A stretch of 22,417 nucleotides of DNA, taken from a virus. Location of the stretch: positions 1 to 22,417 of IMG/VR virus record IMGVR_UViG_3300028394_000337; one strand, given 5' to 3'. The notes beneath the pieces were generated by a model, which was not told the origin of the DNA, did no database searches, and saw only the letters and a program-made list of their open reading frames with translations. A program made the translations under genes and the position numbers. Each line of letters opens with the position of its first letter. Positions within the stretch are counted from its first letter, which is position 1. Below are positions 2,125 to 20,060 of the stretch, piece after piece.

Positions 2125-2844
2125 CTATGGTGTATTTAGCAGATAATACTGCTCTACACGTTGCCACCATTGCTGGCGATACTGCTCAAATTCTGCACCT
2201 GATATCACAAATTCTTGGTATTCGGGTCGCCCAACAATGTTTCCAGAGTCGTCCATTTCAGGTTTGACACACATTAACACCACACCTTTTCGAATCTCAG
2301 TGCCATGCACTTCATTGTGTGCTTCAGCATAGGCACATAATTGCAAGAAATAATCATCAATCCAGTCGCGCCGTTTGGGCTTATTGGTCTGCTTGTAGTC
2401 CAAGATACTTTGTTCATTTAAATGCACACCAGCGGCGTCGGTGGTTCCTGCATAGATTCCAGGAAAGTATAAAGGAACTTCATATCCCCAAAACTCTGTG
2501 ACGTTACACAAGCCATGATCAATCACAGTCTGCGCCATGATATGGCTTTGTTTACTATACGGGTTACTACCAGCGTCGGCAATCTGTCCAGTTTTTGTAT
2601 AGTCTTCAAGATACTTGTGCATTCTAGTGCCGCGGTTGGCAGCTTCTGTGGTGATGGCCTGTGCCTGTACATGTCCCACTCGGTTACGCCAGTTCTGCAG
2701 AGCCTGCTTTTTTTCTTCAGGCTTGGTAGCTTCCAGGATTGTGGTCACGCTGGGTAATTTACGACCATCTGGTGTGGCATACAGTCTGCGTCCGTCTACG
2801 GTTTCCCTGGGTATGGGTTGATAATTAAATCGGGGGTTATACAT
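2125..2844 (-). CDS. PD-(D/E)XK nuclease, RecB/Cas4-like exonuclease family
   Basis: 239 residues, the usual size for stand-alone phage nucleases of this fold. Motifs in order are RGTRMHKYLE (His76, the helix motif typical of RecB-like nucleases), EVPLY (about residue 122), GTTDA (Asp136), ILDYKQ (Asp149-x-Lys151, the D/E-x-K catalytic pair) and QLCAYA (Gln168, the QhxxY motif). It probably degrades or trims DNA in phage recombination, replication or host DNA breakdown. Only three cysteines are present (about 113, 170, 192), and none lies before the nuclease core as in the four-Cys Fe-S clusters of Cas4/AddB, so an Fe-S cluster is not supported. The start ATG overlaps the end of the SGNH gene upstream by 8 bases. 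Confidence 0.9.
   Translation of the reverse strand: MYNPRFNYQPIPRETVDGRRLYATPDGRKLPSVTTILEATKPEEKKQALQNWRNRVGHVQAQAITTEAANRGTRMHKYLEDYTKTGQIADAGSNPYSKQSHIMAQTVIDHGLCNVTEFWGYEVPLYFPGIYAGTTDAAGVHLNEQSILDYKQTNKPKRRDWIDDYFLQLCAYAEAHNEVHGTEIRKGVVLMCVKPEMDDSGNIVGRPEYQEFVISGAEFEQYRQQWWQRVEQYYLLNTP
2130..2140 (-). promoter_or_regulatory. T4-like late promoter for the tail-fibre-like gene
   Basis: On the minus strand GCTAAATACAC ends 22 bases before the ATG at 2107. It lies within the last codons of the nuclease gene. The same nine bases TAAATACAC recur before the gene starting at 6955. T4 late promoters have a TATAAATA -10 element and no -35 element. Confidence 0.5.
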
Positions 2845-3502
2845 TTTTATGTTTTATCCAATCGTAAAGATAGTCGGCAATCAATTGATGACCATGACTG
2901 TTTGGGTGACGACATGGCAAAAAATATTTACTATGTACCTTTTGCATTGCCAAATATTCATCTTGATTATATCCTAAAATTTGAGTACATGTTTTAGGAT
3001 ATATTTTTTGTTTTTCAATGCCTGGCCAGTCAAATTTCATCTCAATCCAGCCTGAAATATAAAAATCTTGTATACCCACCTGAGAACAAACTTGTTGTAA
3101 TGCTAACATAGTCCGGCAAACATTAAATTCATCCATTGGAGCCGTGGACAAGTATTTGTAGTAAATTTCTGTTATATTTTTAACACGGTCAGGAGAATCT
3201 GGTGGTGGCGGAGTGTTAAAATCAATTATACTTTTGTTATAATCAACTAACAAAGACCTGCCAGGCGTAGTTATAAAAAAAATAGCTATATGATTTTTTA
3301 CAGTTGCATGACAAGAAATGTAATCAAAAAGTTGCGGTAATAATCTGCTTACACTTGATCTTGGTATGGATCCATTATAAAAATTTTTTATTTGTAACCG
3401 ATCACACAGCAAGGCACCGTATGGCTTTTCATCCTTTGGCCAAAGTCCAACTCCAGCTGGCCAACTATCACCAAAGGTGGCTAAATGATCGCTGTTTATC
3501 AA
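2837..3502 (-). CDS. SGNH/GDSL hydrolase-like protein 1
   Basis: 221 residues. Block I is ATFGDSWPAG with the presumed nucleophile Ser13. Block V is HPNSHGHQ near the end (His199). The Asp usually three residues before this His is replaced (PCRHPN), so the enzyme may use a Ser-His dyad or be inactive. SGNH enzymes cleave esters such as acyl or acetyl groups on lipids or glycans; the substrate here is unknown. The start is TTG: TTGA overlaps the stop of iscA, and no in-frame ATG lies upstream of block I. The coding sequence looks more AT-rich than its neighbours, suggesting transfer. Two further SGNH-like genes lie in the window (13368-14090 and 19365-20060). Confidence 0.82.
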   Translation of the reverse strand: MINSDHLATFGDSWPAGVGLWPKDEKPYGALLCDRLQIKNFYNGSIPRSSVSRLLPQLFDYISCHATVKNHIAIFFITTPGRSLLVDYNKSIIDFNTPPPPDSPDRVKNITEIYYKYLSTAPMDEFNVCRTMLALQQVCSQVGIQDFYISGWIEMKFDWPGIEKQKIYPKTCTQILGYNQDEYLAMQKVHSKYFLPCRHPNSHGHQLIADYLYDWIKHKNV

Positions 3503-3819
3503 ATTCTAAAACTTTCTCCGCATCCACAGCGGTCTTTTTCTTGAGGGTTGACAAATTCAAAGCCTTCGTTTAGGCCTGCACGAACATAGTCTACCAACAG
3601 TTCATCCAGGATAGGAAAGTCTTTGGGATCTACTACAATTTTAAAACCATCCGATTCAAACACTAGATCAGATTCTGTCGTGCCATCTACATATTCTAAC
3701 ACATAGGCCAGGCCTGAGCAACCGGTAGTTCTTACTCCCAGTCTTATGCCAATACCGCGGCCTCTACGATCAAGACTGGTGGAAATTTTGCCTGCGGCTT
3801 TGGGGGTGACGTGGATCAA
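3499..3819 (-). CDS. iscA: A-type iron-sulfur carrier IscA
   Basis: 106 residues, one shorter than E. coli IscA and alignable along its whole length (RGIGIRLGVRTTGCSGLAYV, GLNEGFEFVNP, CGCGESF). The three metal-binding cysteines are kept at Cys34, Cys98 and Cys100 (E. coli 35, 99, 101). A-type carriers receive clusters from the IscU scaffold and deliver [4Fe-4S] clusters to target enzymes. The start is TTG, forming a TTGA overlap with the iscU stop, so translation is probably coupled. Its own stop overlaps the SGNH start in the same way. HesB/IscA-like genes are known from phages, but the pairing with iscU is less usual. Confidence 0.95.
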   Translation of the reverse strand: MIHVTPKAAGKISTSLDRRGRGIGIRLGVRTTGCSGLAYVLEYVDGTTESDLVFESDGFKIVVDPKDFPILDELLVDYVRAGLNEGFEFVNPQEKDRCGCGESFRI

Positions 3820-4190
3820 TGTTTTTCTCTGTAGTCTGCGATAGCAGCCTTTATAGCGTCTTCCGCCAGGATGCTACAATGGATCTTGACAGGTGGTAGT
3901 GCAAGTTCCTGGGCGATCTGACTGTTCTTGATCGTGCCCGCCTCATCCAGAGTTTTGCCTTTAACCCACTCGGTGACAAGCGAACTCGATGCGATCGCCG
4001 AACCACAACCATACGTTTTAAATTTTGCATCTGTGATAATTCCATCTTGAACCTTGATCTGTAGTTTCATTACATCACCGCAAGCAGGAGCACCAACCAT
4101 GCCGGTGCCAATGTCCAAGTCGTTGGCATCAAACTTGCCCACGTTGCGAGGATTTTCGTAGTGATCTAATACTTTATCTGAATATGCCAT
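3816..4190 (-). CDS. iscU: Iron-sulfur cluster scaffold IscU
   Basis: 124 residues, full length, very close to proteobacterial IscU (MVGAPACGDVMKLQIKV, KTYGCGSAIASSSLVTEWV, HCSILAEDAIKAA). All functional residues are visible: Cys37, Asp39, Cys62, His104, Cys105 and the LPPVK motif (98-102) that recruits the HscA chaperone. IscU assembles [2Fe-2S]/[4Fe-4S] clusters with sulfur from the desulfurase IscS. Neither iscS nor hscBA or fdx is present here, so the phage scaffold would have to work with the host desulfurase and chaperones. The start is ATG with AGGA about 11 bases upstream. It lies 11 bases after the secreted-protein gene, in one operon from the promoter at 4511-4539. Confidence 0.97.
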   Translation of the reverse strand: MAYSDKVLDHYENPRNVGKFDANDLDIGTGMVGAPACGDVMKLQIKVQDGIITDAKFKTYGCGSAIASSSLVTEWVKGKTLDEAGTIKNSQIAQELALPPVKIHCSILAEDAIKAAIADYREKH

Positions 4191-4543: not shown

Positions 4544-4888
4544 TTAGGTGCGGCGATTCAGGGCCGCTTTGGCGTTTTTGTCTACAATGGCTCTAGCTTG
4601 ATCAACTGGCATGCCAGTATCACCTTCGGTGTTGCCACGGAATCTGACTACACCACTGTTTGGATCAAACGGTTCAAGGATATCTTTGAGCGGGTCTCGT
4701 GCGATATACTCGGGCAAGTTTTGTGGATTCACTTCAATGCCAAGACTTCGAGCTGCCTGCATGAAAGCATCTGTGCTGATTTCTTTTCGAGCATTTTCAT
4801 CATCGGCCCGGCCGGCTAAAAACTGACTCAAGGCCAATAATTTTTGTGCGCTGGGATCAGCTGACTCACAAATTTCACTGAAACGCAT
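4544..4888 (-). CDS. Probable virion-associated protein with capsid-targeting-like N-terminus
   Basis: 114 residues, no known domain. The N-terminus MRFSEICES contains I-C-E, fitting the (I/L)-x-E cleavage consensus of the T4 prohead protease, and resembles the starts of three nearby proteins (MKLQEL, MNIFEG, MQIHEL). The middle is helical and acidic (ADDENARKEISTDAFMQAARSLGIEV). The end is basic (VDKNAKAALNRRT). The ATG overlaps the previous stop as TAATG, so it is translationally coupled to the 308-residue gene. A prohead-core or internal-protein role is inference from the N-terminus and position. Confidence 0.8.
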   Translation of the reverse strand: MRFSEICESADPSAQKLLALSQFLAGRADDENARKEISTDAFMQAARSLGIEVNPQNLPEYIARDPLKDILEPFDPNSGVVRFRGNTEGDTGMPVDQARAIVDKNAKAALNRRT

Positions 4889-5814
4889 TATCTGCGACCA
4901 CGGCCTAACGCAGCAGGAGGTGTTTTCATGTTGGCATCAATATCAAGATCAGCTTCAAGATCATCAGCTGGCATTTCAGCATCCATCTCTGGAGCGGCCA
5001 TTTGACCATCGTCCGGTAATCCAGCGCCACCTAGTGCATCCATGGCGGGAGGAACAGCGCCACCTTGGCCAGTTACTACACCAAGAGCCTGTTCTAGTTG
5101 TTGCTTGCTGGCTTGTAAATTTTGTACTAGCCCGCCCAATGCCGCATTGGCATCAGTGTTGAATTGTACCGACTGCTCAACACCAACTTCGTTTTTGACT
5201 TGATCACATAATGCAGGTAAATCTTTAAACTGCATACTGGTCACATCTTCCAACATCTTTTGAACACGATCAACCATGTCCTGGGCAGCCAATACTACCT
5301 GTGCCTGTTGAATTTCACTTTCTTGCAAACGACGATACAAACGATTGTGCTTGCGATTTTCCATTGCAGGAGCAACCATGGCAGCAGGACTGTTCATAGC
5401 CTGCTGGAGAGCGGTTTTTTGTTTGTTCATTTCTTCTATCTGCTTTGTAATCGCTGCAATCTGATCGGTCAATGCTTTTTTACGTTCTTGTTGGGCCTGT
5501 GCTGGATTAACAGGTGTAGTTGACCCTGAAGTGGCAGGAGCAATTGTACCGGCTTGCATTGGCATGACATCTTCGTGCATCTTCTTGGTCAGCACTTGCT
5601 CAAGCATGATCAATTTTAAATAGGTGGGATTTTTTTCACTGTTATGAAATTCTGGAGTCTTGCGATGTTCTTGCACCAGGCCACGCACACGACCAAGTAG
5701 ATCGCGAGTCTGTCTACGGCTGATAGTACTAAGGCGTATACGACCACCAAAATAACTTTCAAATACCTTAGCGGCTTGTTTTGTTGGGCTTGCGGCCAGT
5801 TCTTGCAGTTTCAT
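4888..5814 (-). CDS. Coiled-coil protein, possible prohead core/scaffold-like component
   Basis: 308 residues. Begins MKLQELAAS, with L-Q-E fitting a T4-type prohead cleavage site. A basic N-terminal region follows (GRIRLSTISRRQTRDLLGRVRG), then a Gln/Lys-rich coiled coil (about residues 105-145, QERKKALTDQIAAITKQIEE), a second helical region, and an acidic Met/Ala/Asp-rich tail (about 270-295) ending GRGRR. This high-charge, helical, low-complexity make-up recalls scaffolding or core proteins, but no homology is recognised. A late promoter core (TAAATATTA) lies 21-29 bases before the ATG, inside the preceding gene, whose 3' end overlaps this gene by 47 bases. Confidence 0.85.
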   Translation of the reverse strand: MKLQELAASPTKQAAKVFESYFGGRIRLSTISRRQTRDLLGRVRGLVQEHRKTPEFHNSEKNPTYLKLIMLEQVLTKKMHEDVMPMQAGTIAPATSGSTTPVNPAQAQQERKKALTDQIAAITKQIEEMNKQKTALQQAMNSPAAMVAPAMENRKHNRLYRRLQESEIQQAQVVLAAQDMVDRVQKMLEDVTSMQFKDLPALCDQVKNEVGVEQSVQFNTDANAALGGLVQNLQASKQQLEQALGVVTGQGGAVPPAMDALGGAGLPDDGQMAAPEMDAEMPADDLEADLDIDANMKTPPAALGRGRR

Positions 5815-6262
5815 TGTCTAATCCTCGTTGTTGATAATATTTAGCCTGATTGACACAATTGGCCAATTGAAGTTCAAGTTGCTTTTTCAGTATTATCTTG
5901 CCTTCCAGCTTGATTTCAATGTCTTCACGGAATTGGGGTCGAGTGCTACGATCACCTATAGCGGCTCTTACGGCTATGTCGTTGGTGATATGTCCCAATT
6001 TTTGATCCAATCTATGTAAATCACGTGCCAGTGCATATGATTTGTTTTTGTCGGCTATACACCAACTTAGTGCATTACGAGTATTAGTAAACACACCCAC
6101 ATCAGTTGCTGCGCACGACACGTGGTATCCGTCGGATCCAGGTCGTATAACATAACGCCCAAATGCTTCATATTCACCATTGTCATTTTGGAAAATCATC
6201 TGGTCCATCAAGACACGGAATTCCTGTCGGAAAATCCGGTCAAATTCCTGTTCTGTATTCAT
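5768..6262 (-). CDS. Phage protein of unknown function with helical C-terminus
   Basis: 164 residues. The N-terminal half looks globular (FGRYVIRPGSDGYHVSCAAT, then VFTNTRNALSWCIADKNKSYA). The C-terminal half is a long charged helix with probable coiled coil (IEIKLEGKIILKKQLELQLA) and a basic tail. No domain is recognised. The ATG overlaps the stop of the membrane-protein gene upstream (ATGA), so translation is coupled. Its last 47 bases are shared, in another frame, with the next gene and carry that gene's ribosome-binding site; the next gene's late promoter also lies inside this gene. Confidence 0.82.
   Translation of the reverse strand: MNTEQEFDRIFRQEFRVLMDQMIFQNDNGEYEAFGRYVIRPGSDGYHVSCAATDVGVFTNTRNALSWCIADKNKSYALARDLHRLDQKLGHITNDIAVRAAIGDRSTRPQFREDIEIKLEGKIILKKQLELQLANCVNQAKYYQQRGLDNETARTGRKPNKTSR
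5835..5843 (-). promoter_or_regulatory. T4-like late promoter for the 308-residue gene
   Basis: Minus-strand GGCTAAATATTATC, core TAAATATTA, 21 bases before the ATG at 5814 and before its GAGG Shine-Dalgarno. It matches the TAAATANTA pattern found before other structural genes in the window. Confidence 0.5.
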
Positions 6263-6522
6263 TTAATAACGTAGGTTGCCACAAGCCAAGCTATGGTTCC
6301 AATCAAGGTACCAATGATACCAACACCCCAGGCAATCATTCTGTCGGTGGATTTTTCATGCAGGCTGTTTATGGTGATTTTGACTTCTTGTAGCATTTCG
6401 CAAAGATGTGAGATATTTGTGCCCATGGCCACCATCTTGTCTTCTAGTGCATTGTATCTTTCGGCGCATAATTCAACGTGCGCTTCCAGGCTCTTTTTTT
6501 CAATTTCTGTTGTTCCACTCAT
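6259..6522 (-). CDS. Small coiled-coil protein with C-terminal transmembrane helix (holin- or XhlA-like topology)
   Basis: 87 residues. A hydrophilic, probably coiled-coil N-terminal part (about 1-60; heptad-like NISHLCEMLQEVKITINSL) is followed by one hydrophobic helix at the very C-terminus (about 63-86, WGVGIIGTLIGTIAWLVATYVI), with a GxxxG-like face. This N-coil/C-tail-anchor topology is that of XhlA-type haemolysin/holin-accessory proteins, and it would place the N-terminus in the cytoplasm. A function in lysis or membrane attachment is inferred from topology only. ATGA overlap joins it to the next gene. Confidence 0.8.
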   Translation of the reverse strand: MSGTTEIEKKSLEAHVELCAERYNALEDKMVAMGTNISHLCEMLQEVKITINSLHEKSTDRMIAWGVGIIGTLIGTIAWLVATYVIK

Positions 6523-6535
6523 GATTTTTCCCAGT

Positions 6536-6955
6536 TCATTTATTTACCGTGATTGGACTAAACCAAATGTTTTGTCTGGGCCCAGAAGTCACAACCACGG
6601 ACGCTAGTTCTCTACGGTTGTCAAGATCTGTCAGCATGGGCACACCGTCTGCATCGCTATACAACACGGCCACTGGGTCAGCATCAGTGCCGTATGCTCC
6701 CGGAGTTTCAGTTTCAAATTCAAAACTCCAACTGGATCCTTCGCGCTCGGGCACAGTTGACTCGACCTGTGTTCGCATGCCAATGATTTGATTTACAGTT
6801 TCCCAGTTGCGTTGTTGATTCCTGGATCTGTTCCAATCTGCAACATCTTGAATGGTATTGCCAGCACGATCTTCAAAAGGCACTCGCGACAATTTAAAGT
6901 ATCCAGTGACACCAGTGGCGGTAATATCAAACAAAGTGGTGCAGGAGAATCTCAT
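6536..6955 (-). CDS. T4-like phage conserved-type protein, probable structural/assembly role
   Basis: 139 residues. The sequence MRFSCTTLFDITATGVTGYF, followed by DRAGNTIQDVADWNRSRNQQ and RNWETVNQIIGMRTQ, resembles proteins of unknown function that I recall from T4-like cyanophages (recollection, not checked). The first half is alpha/beta, the second half beta-rich (WSFEFETETPGAYG). There is no signal or membrane segment. A late promoter core lies 23-31 bases upstream, directly after the terminator of the preceding gene, so this gene starts a new late transcript running into the holin-like gene. Confidence 0.85.
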   Translation of the reverse strand: MRFSCTTLFDITATGVTGYFKLSRVPFEDRAGNTIQDVADWNRSRNQQRNWETVNQIIGMRTQVESTVPEREGSSWSFEFETETPGAYGTDADPVAVLYSDADGVPMLTDLDNRRELASVVVTSGPRQNIWFSPITVNK

Positions 6956-6977
6956 TGATTAGTAGTTAGCATCGAGC

Positions 6978-6986
6978 GTGTATTTA
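6978..6986 (-). promoter_or_regulatory. T4-like late promoter for the 139-residue gene
   Basis: Minus-strand ATTAAATACAC, the same TAAATACAC as at 2130-2138. It lies between the terminator (6991-7021) and the ATG at 6955. Confidence 0.45.
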
Positions 6987-6990
6987 ATGC

Positions 6991-7021
6991 CAAAGAAAAA
7001 CCCCAGGTTTTTAATCTGGGG
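6991..7021 (-). terminator. Rho-independent terminator after the 141-residue gene
   Basis: Minus-strand stem CCCCAG (7021-7016) and CTGGGG (7006-7001), with an adjoining extra C, and a 9-base AT-rich loop, followed directly by TTTTTCTTTG. It lies 35 bases after the stop at 7056. Confidence 0.88.
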
Positions 7022-7055
7022 TTGATCAACGACGAAAGTCGTGCTACTGACTCGA

Positions 7056-7481
7056 TTAAGAGTAGTATGTACCTTGAGTGACGAATGTTGCTCGTGCAAA
7101 CACGTTAGCAGTTGGAATACCAATAGTTGCTGTGTTAGCTGTTTGAGCAGCAGCAACTAAAGTAGCTGTGTCATAAGCAGCAACAGGATACAATGCAATA
7201 GCGATGTTTGCGTTTTGTGCACCACCAACTTGATACATTGCAACTGTTGAAGTCTGTTGAATTGCTTGTAGAACGTTAGAAACAAAGTTAGAACCACTAG
7301 CAATTCCACCTTGACCAGTTAAAGCAGCGTTAGCCACCACTGTGAAAAAGTCTAATTTAGGACCTTGGAAGTTGGTAACTGCGGCGTTAGCCACGTTAGA
7401 TGATTGTGCTGGTGTACCATTAAGTACGTCTGTTGCGAATACCGGTTGTGCGCCACCGGAAACTACGGTTATATATGCCAT
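7056..7481 (-). CDS. Ala/Val-rich small protein, probably an abundant virion or decoration protein
   Basis: 141 residues, very rich in Ala, Val, Thr, Asn and Gln with few charges (for example NANIAIALYPVAAYDTATLV and VAAAQTANTATIGIP). No cysteine and no signal peptide; beta-rich. No family is recognised. It stands alone as a transcription unit: a late promoter core (TAAATAATA) 38 bases upstream, the best Shine-Dalgarno in the window (AAAGGAG, seven bases before the ATG) and a strong terminator directly after it. This layout is typical of abundantly made capsid or tail proteins. The precise role is inferred. Confidence 0.88.
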   Translation of the reverse strand: MAYITVVSGGAQPVFATDVLNGTPAQSSNVANAAVTNFQGPKLDFFTVVANAALTGQGGIASGSNFVSNVLQAIQQTSTVAMYQVGGAQNANIAIALYPVAAYDTATLVAAAQTANTATIGIPTANVFARATFVTQGTYYS

Positions 7482-7518
7482 TTTAAATCTCCTTTATGTA
7501 TGGACTCAGAGGTCCTAC

Positions 7519-7529
7519 TATTATTTATG
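7519..7529 (-). promoter_or_regulatory. T4-like late promoter of the 141-residue gene
   Basis: Minus-strand CATAAATAATAG, seven of eight bases of the T4 late consensus TATAAATA, in one of the few noncoding gaps of the window (7482-7544). It lies 38 bases upstream of the ATG at 7481 and has no -35 box, as expected for late promoters. Confidence 0.7.
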
Positions 7530-7544
7530 ATCTGGAGTAAAAAA

Positions 7545-9470
7545 TCAAGTTTTGGGTTGTTGATCTGGATTGTTTTTGGCACGATTGGCGCTGGTAAATC
7601 CACCTGCTAGACGGTTCACAGCCTTGGAGATACCAGCCGGAGTTGCCATTACCCAGCCTTCTTGCCCGGGATGTTGTAGATCCAGCTGTCGTAGTATGTC
7701 CATCTTGATGTCGTGTAGCAAGCCCCAGGCTTCAAATGCCGCGGCCATGCCTTCCAGATTGCTACGTGGGCTTTGTAGGTATTCTACTATGTTGGCAAAC
7801 TTTCTTGGACTCTGTGTGCTTTCGAGCCAAGGTCCAAAGCCGGCAATCAAGTTGTCAAAGTCAGTGCCTACTCTGCTATTAATATAATCAATGCACAGTT
7901 TAGGCAAGTCGGTGATTTGCAAGGCTCGCAGTTCTGCTGGATTGAATAGGCCATCTATGGCCGACCCTGATGTTTTGTATACGTCTCTTAGGGCTTGTAC
8001 CAAGTTCTTATTGGGCCGCACATTTTCTTTGGCATACACAGGTTCTAGTAACAACAATCCTGGAACACGTTTGAAATCAATGTTACCGATTGATTCTTTT
8101 GGCGCACCCGGTTCAGCGTACTTGGTATGCATGGCAATGCCAACTTCGCTATTGCCGATACGTTTTCCAACGTCACTGGCGATAGGAATCCTGTAGGTAA
8201 TAGCATTGGGAGTAAACACAAAATTGCCAGCATCTTCTGGAGGACGATCAGTGTATAACAAATCACCTTGTACATAGCCACGGAATGTCTTGGGCAATGC
8301 GGCACTTAATAAAGGCCATAATTTTTCATATATGGGACCAAGATACTCAACTCGCCCGGCTGGCTTGCCTTTGGCGGCTGCATCTTGATCGCGTTGTGCT
8401 AATAGTCCAATTGCTTGCCGTGGGCTGGTAAACAGGCCATTGTAACCTTTGGCGCCAAAGCCAGACACATCAGTTAGGACAAAAGTTCCGTCTGGATCAC
8501 GTCCAAATACCAGGGCTGGCTTGCCATCCCACTTGACTGTGGTAGTGGCACCAGTGTTCTCTGCTGTGTTCTTTACTATGTCCATGGCCTTTTTAATACC
8601 TGCGCTACCGTTACGGAACACATAGTCTTCTAGATGTTCAATGCCCTTGGCACGACCACCTTGTACTTCAGCTTCTACTATGACCTGCATGCCTTGATTG
8701 ACTATGCGATCTCGCAGTCGGGCCAGGAAGTTTACTTCGTTGTATTCTTGATAAGGATTGACCACGGCACTTTCCATGAATGGAATGCCTTCACGTTCCA
8801 TGTGTGCTCGAAAGTCAGCTAGTTTGGCGTCACGTTTGGGATCTGTGCTTATGGCCTGTAGTATGCTTTCTACACTGGCTAGATCTTGGCGTGTAGCAGT
8901 TTTGTTTAGGAGTAATTTGGCAACTCGATCTGGATCATCAGTGATTAGTTTGTTTGTGGCTCTATCAGCAATACCAGCCACTTGATTCAGTTTGTAACCC
9001 ATACTCTTGGCAAGACTGTTCATTAACACATTACGTTCGCGGCCTTTGAACTTGCTGTCTGCTGGCATGGCTCCTAGCACAAACTTTGACCAAGGCACAT
9101 TGTTCATCAGCATAAAATCAGTTTGCACATACCCAAGATCAGGTCTTCCTGTGATGGGTGTTTTAAAATGTACTGCTGTGCCTGACTTCTTGACCCATTC
9201 CTGTGGCTTGAAGCCGTGGCTGATGGCCCATTGTTCCAGTCTGTGTTGCAGTTGTTCTTTGGAGACCCGGTTGGCATCCACGGCGATATCTAGATCACCC
9301 GACGTGTCTTTGATACCAGTACTACCTAGTGTATTGTTCAGTAGATCCAAGCCTGGGACCAGTTGTTCTAACCAGGCCAGAGTAGGTTTGACATCGGCTT
9401 GATTGATACGCTGTGTGAGCGCACGCCCGTCGGCATCTTTGAATACATTGCCACCTTCAAAAATGTTCAT
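7545..9470 (-). CDS. Fused nucleotidyltransferase (pol-beta type) and ligase-like nucleotidyltransferase
   Basis: 641 residues. The N-terminal domain has the polymerase-beta/MNT-type nucleotidyltransferase signature: LGSTGIKDTSGDLDIAVD with Gly49-Ser50, Asp59 and Asp61, and a third carboxylate in YVQTDFML (Asp118). A second domain from about residue 275 has TTTVKWDGKPALVFG, where K313-W-D-G fits motif I (KxDG) of ATP-dependent DNA/RNA ligases and capping enzymes. GYVQGDLLY (398-406) and EVGIAMHTKY (442-451) are in place of ligase motifs III and IV. The rest is helical, ending in a basic Asn/Gln-rich tail. The ligase-like half resembles an uncharacterised family in T4-like cyanophages (I believe DUF6267; not checked). 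It starts MNIFEGG, with I-F-E fitting a prohead-protease site, and overlaps the previous stop as TAATG. Activity on tRNA, RNA ends or DNA is possible; the substrate is unknown. Confidence 0.9.
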   Translation of the reverse strand: MNIFEGGNVFKDADGRALTQRINQADVKPTLAWLEQLVPGLDLLNNTLGSTGIKDTSGDLDIAVDANRVSKEQLQHRLEQWAISHGFKPQEWVKKSGTAVHFKTPITGRPDLGYVQTDFMLMNNVPWSKFVLGAMPADSKFKGRERNVLMNSLAKSMGYKLNQVAGIADRATNKLITDDPDRVAKLLLNKTATRQDLASVESILQAISTDPKRDAKLADFRAHMEREGIPFMESAVVNPYQEYNEVNFLARLRDRIVNQGMQVIVEAEVQGGRAKGIEHLEDYVFRNGSAGIKKAMDIVKNTAENTGATTTVKWDGKPALVFGRDPDGTFVLTDVSGFGAKGYNGLFTSPRQAIGLLAQRDQDAAAKGKPAGRVEYLGPIYEKLWPLLSAALPKTFRGYVQGDLLYTDRPPEDAGNFVFTPNAITYRIPIASDVGKRIGNSEVGIAMHTKYAEPGAPKESIGNIDFKRVPGLLLLEPVYAKENVRPNKNLVQALRDVYKTSGSAIDGLFNPAELRALQITDLPKLCIDYINSRVGTDFDNLIAGFGPWLESTQSPRKFANIVEYLQSPRSNLEGMAAAFEAWGLLHDIKMDILRQLDLQHPGQEGWVMATPAGISKAVNRLAGGFTSANRAKNNPDQQPKT

Positions 9471-10705
9471 TATCTTGATCTCATTGCTTGTATTATTAGC
9501 TTGTCCCAGAAGTCGTTTCCAGTTTTTTGGGGATCAGGTCCACCAGCTTGATCAGCCAAGGCACCCAAGTTCCGTAACTGGGTTGTAGTCAATCCGGTCT
9601 GGACCGGTTGACCTGGTTGACCTGGTTGACCTGGTTGACCTCGTCGAGCCTGATAACGTAAATTGTTTCCGCCACTGGTGCGCCGATCCCAATCAATCAC
9701 ATGATTGGCTGCAGTGGCCAATGCAAAAATATCGTGTAGGGATTTTTGCTGGGCTGGAATATCTCCATTCAAACTGACCACTTGATTTATTAATTTTTCT
9801 ATTCTGAGTTTTAGTTCAGGAACACCGGCTTCCACTGTTTTTAAATCAATGGTGCCCAGTTGGCTGTCGATCCATGTCCTTATATCCTTGGATAAATTTA
9901 AATTAGCTTTAGCTACATCAGGCGAGACAGGCGAGAGTTGTCCTGCCATGTTAGAAAATGCCTGTGCGCCATCTTCCTTAATTCCTTTTCTAGCAGCAGA
10001 TTTAATTGCCAGCTTGTCTGAAGCGGTTTGCTGGAACGCTGGCTTGGCTTTTGCGGCATCAGCGGCAGTTTTAATTTGTGCATCTTCTGCATTCTTGGCG
10101 GCATTTGCTTGTTGCGTAGCGGCCATTTGCTGTTGTGCCTGTTTTTGGCCCGCTTGTCCAGCAACCTGTTTAATTGCTGTATTTTTCTTTAATTGGTCCA
10201 GGTCCAACGATTGACCTTGTGTTGTCGGGATTGCTGGTTGTACAGTTGGTTGTACAGTTGGTTGTACAGTTGGTTGTACAGTTGGTTGTACAGTTGGTTT
10301 GGCTGTATGGCGAACGGTTCGCGCAGTTGTAGTTGCTACCCCTCCGGTACTGGTAGGCGTGTTTCCGGGTGTTCGTTTGCTTGCAAGAGTTTTTGCTTCC
10401 TCAGGCCATTTGGCAACTATGCCGTCAATCCACTGTTTAGCGACTGGATTTACTTTTAATTTAGCCAAGGCTGAGTCCAGGGTGGGTTTTTTATCTAGTC
10501 CGTCTTTTTTGCCTTGTGCTATAGCTTTTGCGGCATAATCTTGATATCTGGCCTGTTGGGCTTCTTGATCGGCCTTTTGATTTATTAAACTTTTGCCGCC
10601 AGTCTTCCATGCTGATTTGGCCTGTGCGAACACACTGTCAGGACCAACCCAGTCAACTTCATCTAGTCGGGTTTTTTTGGGCTGGGTTAGTTCATGAATT
10701 TGCAT
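9470..10705 (-). CDS. Low-complexity repeat protein, probable virion-internal or structural protein
   Basis: 411 residues. It starts MQIHELTQ, sharing the M-x-(I/L/F)-x-E pattern of three neighbouring proteins. An N-terminal helical part is followed by a Thr-rich linker with five PTVQ repeats (about residues 137-156), a long Gln/Ala/Lys-rich helical region (about 165-240), a folded part (about 245-340) and four GQP repeats (about 355-366) before a short C-terminal domain. No family is recognised. The many Gln/Ala helices and repeat linkers fit an elongated, multi-domain virion protein. It overlaps the gene upstream by 14 bases and the nucleotidyltransferase gene by one base (TAATG), so the three are co-translated. 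Confidence 0.82.
   Translation of the reverse strand: MQIHELTQPKKTRLDEVDWVGPDSVFAQAKSAWKTGGKSLINQKADQEAQQARYQDYAAKAIAQGKKDGLDKKPTLDSALAKLKVNPVAKQWIDGIVAKWPEEAKTLASKRTPGNTPTSTGGVATTTARTVRHTAKPTVQPTVQPTVQPTVQPTVQPAIPTTQGQSLDLDQLKKNTAIKQVAGQAGQKQAQQQMAATQQANAAKNAEDAQIKTAADAAKAKPAFQQTASDKLAIKSAARKGIKEDGAQAFSNMAGQLSPVSPDVAKANLNLSKDIRTWIDSQLGTIDLKTVEAGVPELKLRIEKLINQVVSLNGDIPAQQKSLHDIFALATAANHVIDWDRRTSGGNNLRYQARRGQPGQPGQPGQPVQTGLTTTQLRNLGALADQAGGPDPQKTGNDFWDKLIIQAMRSR
9606..9641. repeat. Four tandem copies of a 9-bp unit
   Basis: Perfect copies of ggttgacct (plus strand) encoding GQP repeats in the gene at 9470-10705. The unit length is a multiple of three, so copy-number change would keep the frame. 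Confidence 0.95.
10236..10295. repeat. Five tandem copies of a 12-bp unit
   Basis: Perfect copies of ggttgtacagtt (plus strand) encoding PTVQ repeats in the same gene as the 9-bp array. Identity at the DNA level implies recent expansion by slippage or unequal recombination. There are no spacers, so it is not a CRISPR array. Confidence 0.97.
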
Positions 10706-10957: not shown

Positions 10958-10966
10958 TATTATTTA
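10958..10966 (-). promoter_or_regulatory. T4-like late promoter opening the structural block
   Basis: Minus-strand CAATAAATAATAC, core TAAATAATA, identical over nine bases to the core at 7519-7527. It overlaps the stop of the radical SAM gene and lies 17 bases before the ATG at 10940. Confidence 0.55.
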
Positions 10967-11974
10967 TTGTTTTTGTCCACATATATCATCACAAATAACC
11001 AAACGGCCGTGCTTGTATTTGTCAATGGCCCAACTCTCTTCTATAGAATTAAACCATTTTATACACTCTTCTATTGGATAGTTTAATGCATTATTTTTCA
11101 CAATCAATGGTGTTAATTGGGCATTAACTGCTTCATGATATTGTCCACTACCATAGGTTTTAGGGTAAAAACCAGTCCAACAACAAGGACTAACATCACC
11201 GGTAGCAGAAATATATATTGATTTTAAAATTTTAGTTTTACAACTGATAGACTGTGCAGGCACTCGATCTATTGTAATATCTTCAAGTAAAATTTGATCT
11301 GTTTTTTTCTTGTGGAACAATATTTCAAAACTTTTTTCACCAGTATAATTTCCTAATAAATGAGTCAAATTTCCATTTTTATCAAATACTGGGGCAGTAT
11401 CACGTCCTTCATTAACCATGTAAAACTGTTTGAATCCAATATCTTTACTCATTTCTTGACATTGAGAAATTTGATGTGAGTTATGATCAAACTTAATCAT
11501 TTTCCAAAGTGCGTATCCGCCTGACGCAATAAATGTTTGAGCATTACGAATTACCGTCTTCCATACGGTATTTTGTCTGTATAAATGATGCGTATCTTCT
11601 AGTCCATCAAGACAAAACGATACCCGTACTGGAGTTTTTGCTAATTGTATCCAGAACCTACTATCTCTTGCACCCCCGTTGGTACTGATAGTAACCAACA
11701 ATTTTGGATTTATACTAAAAAAATAATCAACAATATCTGCTCCCTCTGGGTTCATTACAATGTCGCCAAAGTTACCATTGATACGTATGCTTGTTAATTG
11801 AATTAAAAAATCTGTAGTAAAAACTTTTTTAGCGTGTTCTAATGTAAAGTTTATTTCTGGGTATCCTCCATTATAAGGATATCCCCAAAATGTTCTGGGA
11901 CACCAGGGACAACTAGCATTACATAGACTAGAAATTTCTAAATGAACATCCAGAATGTCTTGATATTCTATCAT
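10964..11974 (-). CDS. Radical SAM enzyme with SPASM/Twitch-like C-terminal cluster domain
   Basis: 336 residues. The [4Fe-4S]/SAM motif is LCNASCPWCPR (Cys18, Cys22, Cys25; CX3CX2C), followed by a radical-SAM barrel (SIRINGNFGDIVMNPEG, VTISTNGG, VSFCLDGLEDTH). The C-terminal part has Cys245-X13-Gly-X4-Cys264, matching the opening CX9-15GX4C of SPASM domains, then Cys265, Cys304, Cys328 and Cys332, enough for at least one auxiliary cluster. SPASM enzymes modify peptides, proteins or small molecules; the substrate here is unknown. The gene looks clearly more AT-rich than the helicase upstream, suggesting acquisition. ATGA overlap with the helicase stop couples translation. Its need for Fe-S clusters may connect it to iscU/iscA. 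Confidence 0.9.
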   Translation of the reverse strand: MIEYQDILDVHLEISSLCNASCPWCPRTFWGYPYNGGYPEINFTLEHAKKVFTTDFLIQLTSIRINGNFGDIVMNPEGADIVDYFFSINPKLLVTISTNGGARDSRFWIQLAKTPVRVSFCLDGLEDTHHLYRQNTVWKTVIRNAQTFIASGGYALWKMIKFDHNSHQISQCQEMSKDIGFKQFYMVNEGRDTAPVFDKNGNLTHLLGNYTGEKSFEILFHKKKTDQILLEDITIDRVPAQSISCKTKILKSIYISATGDVSPCCWTGFYPKTYGSGQYHEAVNAQLTPLIVKNNALNYPIEECIKWFNSIEESWAIDKYKHGRLVICDDICGQKQ

Positions 11975-13374
11975 GACGTTTTAATTTGTCCCAAAAGTTG
12001 TTTTAATTTAGCACTTTGTACGTCGGCTGTAATCTTACTAATTTCACCAGTGGTCTGATCTACTGTTTCTGTTGGAGTAACTCTGCTTTGTGCCTTGATA
12101 CTTTCATAGATGTTGGGCTTTTTAAAGCCTCCTCCAGTCTGTTCATCTTCGCCTGGATCCGTGATACGCATGGTTTCAATGTTGTAGTCCAGGTCAATCT
12201 TCATGCCCACACCTGTACTGCTTCTTGACTTCATGCATTGTATTTGATATTTGCCACGTTCTTTCATGGCCCTGCTTGTAAAAATACCAAACACATTGTC
12301 CGCAGTATTGATCTTGCTTATACCACCTGAAATATGGCTATGATCAAACTCCACTTCCTCTACTGCACTACGATTCAACTGTGACGCAGTCACAAATAAC
12401 ACATTGAGTTCTTTGGCCAAGTTCCGCAGTTCTTCACTCACATACTTGTCTTTGACAAACAGATCATTTGGACTAACCTTGGCCGACACTGGCATCAGCA
12501 AGTCTAGATAATCACACATGACAAAGTCTACACGGATACCAGTCTGTACTTGCACTTCTTTTATATAACTACGGATGTCATTGATTGTGCTCTGCGCTGG
12601 TATGGCCTTGATTCTATACTGTCCAGCCTTCTTACTGACCAGTTTAACTTTCAGTTCTGTTTGGTCAATGTCCTTGCGTATTTCTTTTGTGCTCATTCCA
12701 GCCAACATGGCATCAGTCCTTAGGGCACACAGTTCTTCGCTTAATTCCAAACTGATATACACTCCACTTAGACCGGCCTGGAGCCACGATAATGCTATGT
12801 TCATCATGACCAGACTCTTGCCCGATCCCGACCCACCAGCAAAGATGTTGAGTTCTCCGCGACTGAATCCACCATACAAGATACGATCCATCTGTGGCCA
12901 CCCTGTGCTGACTTGCCCACCTGAATTAAAATACCGGTCTATTCGAGCTCTTGGATCAGCCCAGTAGTCTGTGCCCATGTCCTTGGTCAAGCTGATCTGC
13001 ACTGCATCTTTGATCAGTTTTTCTACCGGATCATACTCGCCTTTTTCCAGCAAGTCTGCACTCTTTAAAATTGCACGTTCTAGTTCTTGGCGTCGGGTGA
13101 ATGCTTCAAACTCTTCCATGAACCAGTCAAAGTGCCCTGCGTTAAGATCAGGAATGTGTTGTAGTCGAACCCCTGTTGTTGCGCCGATCTGTTCAGCAGA
13201 AGGCAGTGTTTTATGATCATTGCTGTGCCGGGCAATGAACTCAGCCGCTGGTCTGAGACTACGATCAAAGTTTTCTGGATTATAAATGTTCTGCACACGC
13301 ACATAACTCTCTGCGTCTTGCAACATCATTTCTAAGAATAGTCGTTGGACATCAAGTCCGTAATCTTTTAACAA
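11971..13374 (-). CDS. 41: Replicative DNA helicase, gp41-like (DnaB/RecA fold)
   Basis: 467 residues, matching the 475 of T4 gp41. The N-terminal helical domain (about 1-130) is followed by the RecA-like motor. Walker A is GGSGSGKS (180-187), followed by the H1a-like SLELSEELCALR. Walker B is VDFVMCDYLDLL (about 282-293). ASQLNRSA and the HISGGISKINTADNVF stretch correspond to H3 and later motifs of DnaB-family helicases. It forms a hexamer that unwinds at the fork and works with the primase encoded just upstream. The start is TTG inside a 16-bp repeat also found at the start of the preceding SGNH gene; AAGGAA lies upstream. The last part is a flexible Thr/Lys-rich tail. Confidence 0.96.
   Translation of the reverse strand: MLKDYGLDVQRLFLEMMLQDAESYVRVQNIYNPENFDRSLRPAAEFIARHSNDHKTLPSAEQIGATTGVRLQHIPDLNAGHFDWFMEEFEAFTRRQELERAILKSADLLEKGEYDPVEKLIKDAVQISLTKDMGTDYWADPRARIDRYFNSGGQVSTGWPQMDRILYGGFSRGELNIFAGGSGSGKSLVMMNIALSWLQAGLSGVYISLELSEELCALRTDAMLAGMSTKEIRKDIDQTELKVKLVSKKAGQYRIKAIPAQSTINDIRSYIKEVQVQTGIRVDFVMCDYLDLLMPVSAKVSPNDLFVKDKYVSEELRNLAKELNVLFVTASQLNRSAVEEVEFDHSHISGGISKINTADNVFGIFTSRAMKERGKYQIQCMKSRSSTGVGMKIDLDYNIETMRITDPGEDEQTGGGFKKPNIYESIKAQSRVTPTETVDQTTGEISKITADVQSAKLKQLLGQIKTS
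13359..13374. repeat. 16-bp direct repeat, copy at the helicase start
   Basis: cgtaatcttttaacaa (plus strand). It is identical to 14075-14090 and encodes the first five codons (MLKDY) of the helicase. Both copies are preceded on the minus strand by AAGGAA and an A/C-rich spacer. Confidence 0.97.
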
Positions 13375-14090
13375 AGTTTGTTCCTTTGCATAGTTGGTAG
13401 TAATGAGTTTTCAAAAAAATATTTGTTTCCTGCTGGACCATGGTGTCCCTCGGGCATGTCAGAGTCAGCTGGCCTATTGACACCAATGTTGATGCCATGG
13501 TAAGTATCTTCGAATAATATGCATTTCTGATGATTCATACAGTAAGGCAATACAAAATTGCTAGGACCCCATATGTTATTTTTATCAAAGTCTTTGCTTA
13601 AATTAAGTATCATGTAATTTGCATTGATGCTGTCTAACCATTTAGTTAGAAAAAATACTGTTCTTAATACTTGAGTTTCTAACCAAGAACGGTCGTGATG
13701 TATAATCAATTCTTTATCTGTACCGTAATTTTGCAACGATACCAACCCACGATGTACCGCTATATCAAACGGTTGATCTTGCCAGGTCTGTGTATCAATT
13801 GTATGTCCTATATATTCAGTATTTTTGTGATTGTCAAACACCGTGATTCTTTCCAACGGAGGAACACCAATTAATACAAGATCTGTGTTCCACATTATTT
13901 CGTTTTGTAATCCAACTACTAACTGGCAAACAGCATCAAAACTATTGACAGGTCTGGAACAGTTTTTAATTGTGCGAATGCCAAGATATGAGGCTAGCAG
14001 TCCCCAAAAACTATCGTTGGGCTCTACACAAAGACCTGGCGTGGTATAGCTATCACCAAATACCCAAAGTTTATCGTAATCTTTTAACAA
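13368..14090 (-). CDS. SGNH/GDSL hydrolase-like protein 2, inserted between primase and helicase
   Basis: 240 residues. Block I is WVFGDSYTTPG. A block-III-like IGVPPLERI follows, and near the C-terminus DMPEGHHGPAGN supplies the candidate catalytic His in HHGPAGN. The DMP(E/D)G motif is shared with the SGNH-like protein at 19365-20060. The start is TTG (TTG TTA AAA GAT TAC), and its first five codons are identical in DNA to those of the helicase. It overlaps the end of the primase gene by 20 bases and the helicase start by 7. The sequence looks AT-richer than the flanking replication genes. Ester hydrolysis of a lipid, glycan or peptide substrate is expected from the family, but the target is unknown. 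Confidence 0.83.
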   Translation of the reverse strand: MLKDYDKLWVFGDSYTTPGLCVEPNDSFWGLLASYLGIRTIKNCSRPVNSFDAVCQLVVGLQNEIMWNTDLVLIGVPPLERITVFDNHKNTEYIGHTIDTQTWQDQPFDIAVHRGLVSLQNYGTDKELIIHHDRSWLETQVLRTVFFLTKWLDSINANYMILNLSKDFDKNNIWGPSNFVLPYCMNHQKCILFEDTYHGINIGVNRPADSDMPEGHHGPAGNKYFFENSLLPTMQRNKLC

Positions 14091-19339: not shown

Positions 19340-19368
19340 ATATTACAGTAATTAAAGGTAAAAGTCAA
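19340..19368 (-). promoter_or_regulatory. Sigma70-type promoter of the operon 19333-16650
   Basis: Minus-strand TTGACT (19368-19363), 17-base spacer, TAATAT (19345-19340), then six bases to the ATG. The -35 box overlaps the stop codon of the SGNH 3 gene. Confidence 0.7.
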
Positions 19369-20060
19369 GCCCATTTAGCAGTTTGTTGAACAAGCAGATC
19401 AAAAAATTTCTTGTGTGCAGTGGGTGGGTTATGATTGATGATTCTGGTTCCAACGCCATCGGGCATGTCCCAAGGTTGTGTGCCTTGCCAGACTGGGAAT
19501 CCCGACCAATCAAAATAGAACAACGGGCCTGGAATAAACAAATACGGAATACCAGCACGATCAAGTTCGCGTAGTCCGTCTCGAATGATATAATAGTTGC
19601 GTCGATCTTCTATGTCAAAGTTGTGTACATCACGCAGGTATTGTTTCACAGTGTCTTTTGTTGTGCTATCTAAATCGGTATAGCTGTGCTCGATCACGTT
19701 GTTGAGTGTGTCACTTATGATGCAGGCCTGTGCGGCATTGACCCATTGTTCACTAGCGGCATGATAATTTCTGTAGTGGATTAGATCCAATCTGATGGGC
19801 AAGTTTTGACTGTAGGCCTTGCCCGCGACGTCGATACGGTCACTACTGGTTGCACCCACTATGACATAATCAGCATGATCCTGTATGGCACGTTCTATCT
19901 GTAGATGTATGCAGAAGTTGGTGGCTCCAGGTCTGGCTAGACTCACATGTTGCCATCCGCGATGGTCGGCATACTGATCCAGGAAACTGGGTTGGTCAGG
20001 CCAGCGAGTGTCTGTACTCATGAAACTGCACCCTAGCGAGTACACCGTTGTCATTTCCAT
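19365..20060 (-). CDS. SGNH/GDSL hydrolase-like protein 3
   Basis: 231 residues. Block I is VYSLGCSFMSTDTRWPD, with Ser in a GCS context as in many phage members of the family. Block II is SLARPGATNFCIH. A block-III-like VGATSSDRIDV follows. The C-terminus has DMPDGVG followed by INHNPPTAHKKFF with a candidate catalytic His. The DMP(E/D)G motif is shared with SGNH 2. The usual Asp three residues before the His is not seen. The start is ATG at 20060, overlapping the uvsW stop by 10 bases; a second ATG at 20054 makes an ATGA overlap and is equally possible. Composition looks like that of its neighbours, unlike the two other SGNH genes. Substrate unknown. Confidence 0.82.
   Translation of the reverse strand: MEMTTVYSLGCSFMSTDTRWPDQPSFLDQYADHRGWQHVSLARPGATNFCIHLQIERAIQDHADYVIVGATSSDRIDVAGKAYSQNLPIRLDLIHYRNYHAASEQWVNAAQACIISDTLNNVIEHSYTDLDSTTKDTVKQYLRDVHNFDIEDRRNYYIIRDGLRELDRAGIPYLFIPGPLFYFDWSGFPVWQGTQPWDMPDGVGTRIINHNPPTAHKKFFDLLVQQTAKWA

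Follow-up and report, generated by a model that had tools for sequence, protein, structure and literature searches.

A phage protein combining predicted Pol X-like and ligase-like nucleotidyltransferase domains behind a putative capsid-targeting N-terminus

On the minus strand of a 22,417-nt viral DNA fragment (IMG/VR record IMGVR_UViG_3300028394_000337, hereafter the window), a single gene encodes a protein in which the signatures of two unrelated nucleotidyltransferase (NTase) superfamilies follow each other, and the locus raises the question of what a phage might do with both activities in one polypeptide that, in addition, begins like a protein destined for the phage head. The original prediction of two unrelated active sites in one protein, made from the sequence alone, is upheld by the conservation of both motif sets and by the two predicted folds, and the motif residues that it named lie exactly where it placed them in the 641-aa protein. 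The features of the gene and of its neighbors are as follows.

7545..9470 (including the stop codon), minus strand: two-domain NTase fusion gene, 641 aa (PF19782, 5e-28; 126-sequence alignment)
9456..9470, minus strand: N-terminal extension MNIFE, a predicted capsid-targeting propeptide cut after E5 (conserved junction, see below)
8775..9455, minus strand: N-terminal domain, Pol X-like palm and thumb, residues ~6-232 (VIA-align, Foldseek)
9288..9329, minus strand: NTase motif L48-GSTGIKDTSGD59-L-D61 (alignment)
9117..9119, minus strand: D118 (QTDF), third metal-binding Asp (126/126 sequences)
8652..8774, minus strand: linker of low model confidence, residues 233-273, with the conserved FLARLRDRIVNQGM (model and alignment)
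7548..8651, minus strand: C-terminal domain, DUF6267, predicted covalent-NTase (ligase) fold, residues 274-641 (profile and model)
8523..8534, minus strand: ligase motif I, K313-W-D-G316 (126/126; invariant also in stand-alone DUF6267)
8253..8279, minus strand: ligase motif III region GYVQGDLLY, residues 398-406, with D403 (126/126)
7650..7661, minus strand: ligase motif IV, E604-G-W-V607 (alignments)
7611..7625, minus strand: ligase motif V, K616-A-V-N-R620 (alignments)
9470..10705, minus strand: upstream gene, 411 aa, PT repeats, begins MQIHE (ORF and domain search)
4888..5814, minus strand: downstream gene of a virion structural protein family, begins MKLQE (phrog_14154, 2.2e-12)
4544..4888, minus strand: small downstream gene, begins MRFSEICE↓S (ORF list; here and below the arrow marks the putative cut)

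Two nucleotidyltransferase sites in one protein

The fusion gene starts with ATG, and the opposite (plus) strand over 7545-9470 is full of stops. Upon scanning IMG/VR with the fusion protein, 80 loci were retrieved, mostly with the complete two-domain gene; profile scans returned at least 600 matches, and the full-length fusion is present in at least 167 ORFs, some of them from overlapping loci. Conservation was assessed over 126 distinct full-length sequences, the window protein and its IMG/VR homologues, with identities of 47-100%. The residues D59 and D61 are each kept in 125/126 and D118 in 126/126, K313, W314, D315, G316 and D403 are each found in 126/126, E604 and G605 in 125/125, and K616 in 124/124, so that the residues on whose conservation the original prediction had been staked (K313, D59 and D61) are retained in at least 125 of the 126 sequences. 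The sole exception at the NTase site is a homologue (L201:3855-5411) that has lost the DxD and whose N-terminal site is degenerate; its ligase motifs are intact, and a frameshift or natural loss could explain the change. Among 50,697 GenBank phage records none has a place covering 80% of the query, which suggests that the fusion is known from uncultivated phages alone. For the DUF6267 domain, tblastn detected relatives in 464 records of sequenced phages.

For the first half of the fusion Pfam gives nothing above threshold. This half displays the complete pattern of the Pol-beta NTase superfamily (G49 and S50, D59-x-D61, D118), and in a full-length AlphaFold model (42 aligned sequences as input, mean pLDDT 87.7) its predicted fold matches family X polymerases, in accordance with the domain originally proposed. 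Comparison with the PDB by VIA-align yielded Z scores of 10.7-11.2 to Pol lambda and Pol beta over ~158-183 aligned residues, a match that covers model residues 1-205, corresponding to palm and thumb, and the Foldseek list is led by the DNA polymerases lambda, beta and mu, TdT and AsfvPolX (best E-value 2.6e-4). The palm and thumb predicted by the model and the GS...DxD...D arrangement are thus common to the fusion and to Pol beta, Pol lambda and AsfvPolX. Nevertheless, the signature of family X polymerases is GSxRRG...SGD, for which the fusion has GSTGIKDTSGD, and the 8-kDa lyase domain is missing. The sequence link is also weak, since PF14791 (Pol beta thumb) gave poor matches in 13 of 18 members, all at 0.015 or worse and at 0.11 for the window protein, and PF14792 (palm) did not match the window protein at E-values up to 10. 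For this reason the domain, as modeled, is described here as a Pol-beta-superfamily NTase with a Pol X-like fold and not as a family X polymerase. Sequence-profile searches of the PDB with the alignments of either domain returned chance matches only (DesK, MxiC, Rad24). In a contig of a Methylophilaceae MAG (L323) two N-domain-like NTase genes lie close together (4962-5945 and 7458-8927); one of the pair begins MLVREILIE↓GG and the other, a tandem paralogue, matches PF14792 (DNA_pol_B_palm) at 0.008.

The C-terminal 368 residues belong to DUF6267 (PF19782; 5e-28, 99 bits against a curated cut-off of 27), the profile of which matches all 42 fusion representatives. This family is listed by Pfam as of unknown function, the fusion protein is assigned by PHROGs to phrog_455, likewise annotated as unknown function, no paper in the literature searched mentions DUF6267, and to our knowledge no activity is known for any of its members. 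In the cyanophages and the Methylophilales phage examined DUF6267 stands alone, starting at a position that aligns with window residue 274, whereas in the fusion it is placed behind the Pol X-like domain. An alignment that includes stand-alone cyanophage members has 27 invariant columns, among them KWDG-x-P-A, the Asp of GDL and the E-G of motif IV. When the domain was modeled alone (mean pLDDT 93.7, pTM 0.89), the NTase core of ligases was present, and all 50 VIA-align hits among the matches listed are RNA or DNA ligases; the best is the Naegleria gruberi RNA ligase (Z 8.6, rmsd 3.9 Å, 177 residues aligned), with Z scores of 7.3 for T4 Rnl1 and of 6.8 for each of T4 Rnl2, Trl1 and human DNA ligase 1. 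Foldseek E-values are modest, the best being 0.0095. Together with motif I, K313-W-D-G, this predicted core agrees with the covalent NTase that had been proposed for the second half. The proposed motifs III and IV are both conserved, but the placement of motif IV had to be corrected, as motifs IV and V are located at the C-terminus (EGWV and KAVNR). Likewise, the search for motifs V and VI was successful for the former, and motif VI is absent: in the models the protein ends 21 residues, forming one helix, after R620, and therefore has neither an OB domain nor motif VI, both of which DNA ligases and capping enzymes have after motif V. The predicted fold, motifs I, III, IV and V and the lack of an OB domain after motif V are shared with ATP-dependent RNA ligases (Naegleria Rnl, T4 Rnl1 and Rnl2), from which the fusion differs in falling below any sequence threshold (no match of the window protein to PF09414, RNA_ligase, at E-values up to 10), in the Asp (D403) that takes the place of Glu in motif III and in a modeled helical insert of ~110 residues that separates the core strands from motif IV; in motif V a single Lys (K616-x-V-x-R) is found and not KxK. 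Based on these models, DUF6267 is predicted to have the covalent-NTase (ligase) fold, and the protein is highly likely to possess two functional NTase sites, one of the Pol-beta and one of the covalent-NTase superfamily. This outcome exceeds the earlier idea in two respects, the Pol X-like thumb of the N-terminal fold and the occurrence of unfused partner genes together in other phages.

Genomic setting and the N-terminal extension

The original prediction had set the gene apart from replication genes and under a late promoter. The former is wrong, since a DnaB-like helicase, a primase, a UvsW-like helicase and an exonuclease lie on the strand of the fusion within about 12 kb, and the latter found no support, as no exact TATAAATA is present and its one-mismatch matches number 24 against 24.2 expected by chance. 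Upstream on the same strand are the UvsW-like helicase, a DNA polymerase-family match, the primase and the DnaB-like helicase, and the stop of the adjoining upstream gene overlaps the fusion start, the stop-start junction reading AGATAATG. Downstream are the virion structural protein, the Fe-S proteins IscU and IscA, the exonuclease and a ribonucleotide reductase. The adjoining IscA-like and IscU genes (3499-4190, minus strand; IscU 5.6e-66, IscA 2.5e-41) are unusual for a phage. A radical SAM-domain protein (10964-11974, minus strand; phrog_21308, 1.9e-16) is encoded between the helicase and the fusion gene block, and three further minus-strand genes (2837-3502, 13368-14090 and 19365-20060) have GDSW, GDSY or GCSF starts that by eye resemble SGNH-type hydrolases. 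All three large contigs in which the fusion was found contain a separate gene for a T4-like DNA ligase, and a role as replicative DNA ligase was therefore rejected for these related contigs.

The fusion homologues start with 5-9 residues ahead of GGN(V/I)F, and E5 is found in 125/125 aligned sequences. In all 49 distinct complete extensions the junction reads (L/I/V)-x-E↓GG, with Leu in 32, Ile in 14 and Val in 3 at the position two before the Glu, while the residue in between (P2) takes eleven identities. In the unfused N-domain homologues the first residues are MGG or MSG, and the extension is therefore an addition in the fusion; the distant N-domain homologue in the Methylophilaceae contig also starts with such a junction, MLVREILIE↓GG. 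A comparable N-terminus is that of T4 gp24, MAKINELLRE↓S, which we take to be cleaved after MAKINELLRE. The T4 prohead protease gp21 cuts after L/I-x-E, and mature T4 virion proteins have shed 7 to 65 residues from the N-terminus as propeptides (PMC9026906). The short predicted propeptide ending in L/I-x-E thus likens the fusion to T4 Alt, IPI-III and gp24, from which it differs in that its extension has only 5-9 residues and in that cleavage is predicted from sequence. A gp21-type S77 protease is encoded in two of the large fusion-bearing contigs (G002, 5.9e-24; G003, 1.4e-26) and was not found in the third (G001), nor in the window, itself a 22-kb fragment. The capsid-targeting-like N-terminus of the original prediction is therefore strengthened by the 49/49 junction and by these two proteases. 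Furthermore, the annotation of the N-domain homologue gp253 of phage PA5oct lists it as a structural protein on the basis of ESI-MS/MS. In the window the start M-x-(L/I/F)-x-E is shared by four neighboring genes (4544-10705), that is, 4 of 31 genes against 0.53 expected (P 0.002, for a pattern chosen after inspection); the enrichment is limited to this block of window genes, as G003 and G001 taken singly do not show a significant excess of this start, and across the two large contigs as wholes L-x-E was not seen to be overrepresented close to N-termini. A T4 capsid-targeting-like start, MKSFLQFLKE↓AA, is also found in a virion-detected NMNAT-like protein of S-SCSM1 (gene 91, L322:28820-30049).

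Unfused relatives of the two modules

The N-domain occurs alone in Agrobacterium phage Atu_ph07, Sinorhizobium phage Phosso, PA5oct-like Pseudomonas phages and the Flavobacterium immuto phages, and in the first three of these, which represent three genera, a ligase-like gene bearing E-K-x-D-G and E-G-x-V, with a K further downstream, is located separately, 0-2 genes away. The two genes adjoin in Atu_ph07 (gp065/gp066, the latter matching Pfam RNA_ligase at 0.002) and in Phosso (447/446, which overlap), and in PA5oct the pair (gp253 and gp256) is separated by two further genes. The ligase-like gp256 was matched by the DUF6267 model in a structure search of BFVD (3e-5, probability 1.00) and, independently, in a search of a small ORF set with the DUF6267 profile (7.1e-6); it carries no virion-protein mark in the annotation. 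When the three unfused ligase-like proteins were compared with DUF6267 profile against profile, the match was weak (8.9% probability) and restricted to the motif IV/V region. The immuto N-domain gene, for which no clear ligase partner was seen, is a counter-example to this pairing; adjoining it is immuto gp088 (L212:6908-9628, 907 aa), whose N-terminus is Pol-beta-like and whose middle part resembles a cytidylyltransferase. Since three genera have the modules as neighbors and many other phages have them fused, they very probably work together. IMG/VR scans with the N-domain genes of Phosso and PA5oct retrieved no relatives.

No N-domain partner was found near the stand-alone DUF6267 genes in the neighborhoods of P-HM1, S-PM2, S-CRM01 and S-SZBM1. 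DUF6267 is absent among the S-SCSM1 virion proteins 89-93, and it does not appear in the portion of the S-SZBM1 virion proteome table covered by the analysis, though two of its neighbors are listed there. In four cyanophage loci (L081, L213, L214 and L215) the stand-alone DUF6267 follows mazG and precedes, or is fused to, cytidylyltransferase-like genes.

A putative fill-and-seal enzyme and its alternatives

We hypothesize, at even chances, that the fusion is a two-domain nucleic-acid end-repair enzyme of the fill-and-seal kind carried in the phage head. The more specific claim, a single virion-packaged polymerase-ligase enzyme that repairs broken strands at infection and would represent the first function for a DUF6267 protein, falls a little short of an even chance. 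Residues 1-5 would steer the fusion into the prohead, where a gp21-type protease would cut after E5 and leave an N-terminal Gly-Gly, and the enzyme would then enter the cell with the genome and act before phage gene expression. By two-metal chemistry involving D59, D61 and D118, the Pol X-like domain would extend a 3' end or fill a gap by one or a few nucleotides, while the DUF6267 domain would load AMP (or GMP) onto K313, transfer the nucleotide to a 5'-phosphate and then seal the strand. Both catalytic activities, the cooperation of the domains, packaging and injection are what we infer from the motifs, models and gene neighborhoods described above.

With regard to the substrate, the evidence leans slightly toward an RNA strand or a nick containing RNA, because RNA ligases are the nearest folds of the C-domain, the OB domain is missing and the three large related contigs encode a DNA ligase of their own; repair of nicked or gapped incoming DNA is almost as probable, given the Pol X fold and the replication-gene neighbors. 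In bacterial end joining by LigD, one ribonucleotide is added before sealing, and a mixed case of this type, in which a single ribonucleotide is added and then sealed, would suit the RNA and the DNA evidence alike.

Taken as an explanation of its own, the same two-step enzyme acting on DNA, filling short gaps and sealing nicks in the phage genome at head filling or just after injection, is a serious yet rather unlikely alternative. The Pol beta/lambda-like N-domain, thumb included, and the neighboring helicase, primase, UvsW-like helicase and exonuclease are consistent with it, as is the small number of tRNA genes (none in the window and one in the 356 kb of two related large contigs), which leaves little phage tRNA to protect. 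DNA ligases have an OB domain after motif V, whereas the C-domain lacks it and is nearest to RNA ligases, and the T4-like DNA ligase of the related phages also argues against this explanation. Less probable still is an unpackaged enzyme synthesized in the host after infection, which would repair RNA cut by host defense nucleases, the L-x-E being incidental. Precedent comes from the RlaP Pol-beta NTases that accompany RNA ligases in jumbo phages (PMC7824862), and the overlap with the upstream gene and the proximity to replication genes would fit synthesis during infection. Nevertheless, a junction constant in 49/49 extensions while P2 varies over 11 residues, the lack of an extension in unfused homologues and the virion mark of PA5oct gp253 speak against an incidental motif. 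The fusion shares with the RlaP and RNA ligase pairs the logic of nucleotide addition and sealing by partner proteins, but it differs from them in that its modules are fused and apparently head-targeted and in that PF10127 (RlaP) has no match at E-values up to 10 in the window and the three related contigs.

The remaining explanations move away from strand repair. The protein might nucleotidylate a protein, cofactor or small molecule, like the NMNAT-like proteins of cyanophage virions, and the stand-alone cyanophage DUF6267 genes indeed adjoin, or are fused to, cytidylyltransferase/NMNAT-like genes, some of whose products are virion proteins; yet the N-domain has kept a polymerase-type thumb and the closest folds of the C-domain, among the matches listed, are all strand-sealing enzymes, which renders this explanation improbable. 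A catalytically dead structural or scaffold relic would agree with the virion association of PA5oct gp253, but the catalytic residues are essentially invariant at overall identities of 47-100%, and such a relic is very improbable.

The packaged end-repair enzyme that we favor combines known and new elements. Pol-beta partnerships of RlaP with RNA ligase and viral PolX-ligase pairs are already known, and African swine fever virus, like the fusion, has a minimal PolX and a ligase that are both viral (PMC5330486, PMC6344480), but as separate proteins, with a ligase of the DNA type and in an unrelated virus. New are the fusion itself, the assignment of DUF6267 to the ligase type, the partner genes that occur unfused and the junction of protease type. 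With a ligase-type active site, DUF6267 gains a testable activity, and the constant (L/I/V)-x-E↓GG junction provides a simple sequence rule for finding further packaged enzymes. If the fusion is packaged, these phages would import their own gap-filling and sealing activity, and repair could take place before any phage gene is expressed.
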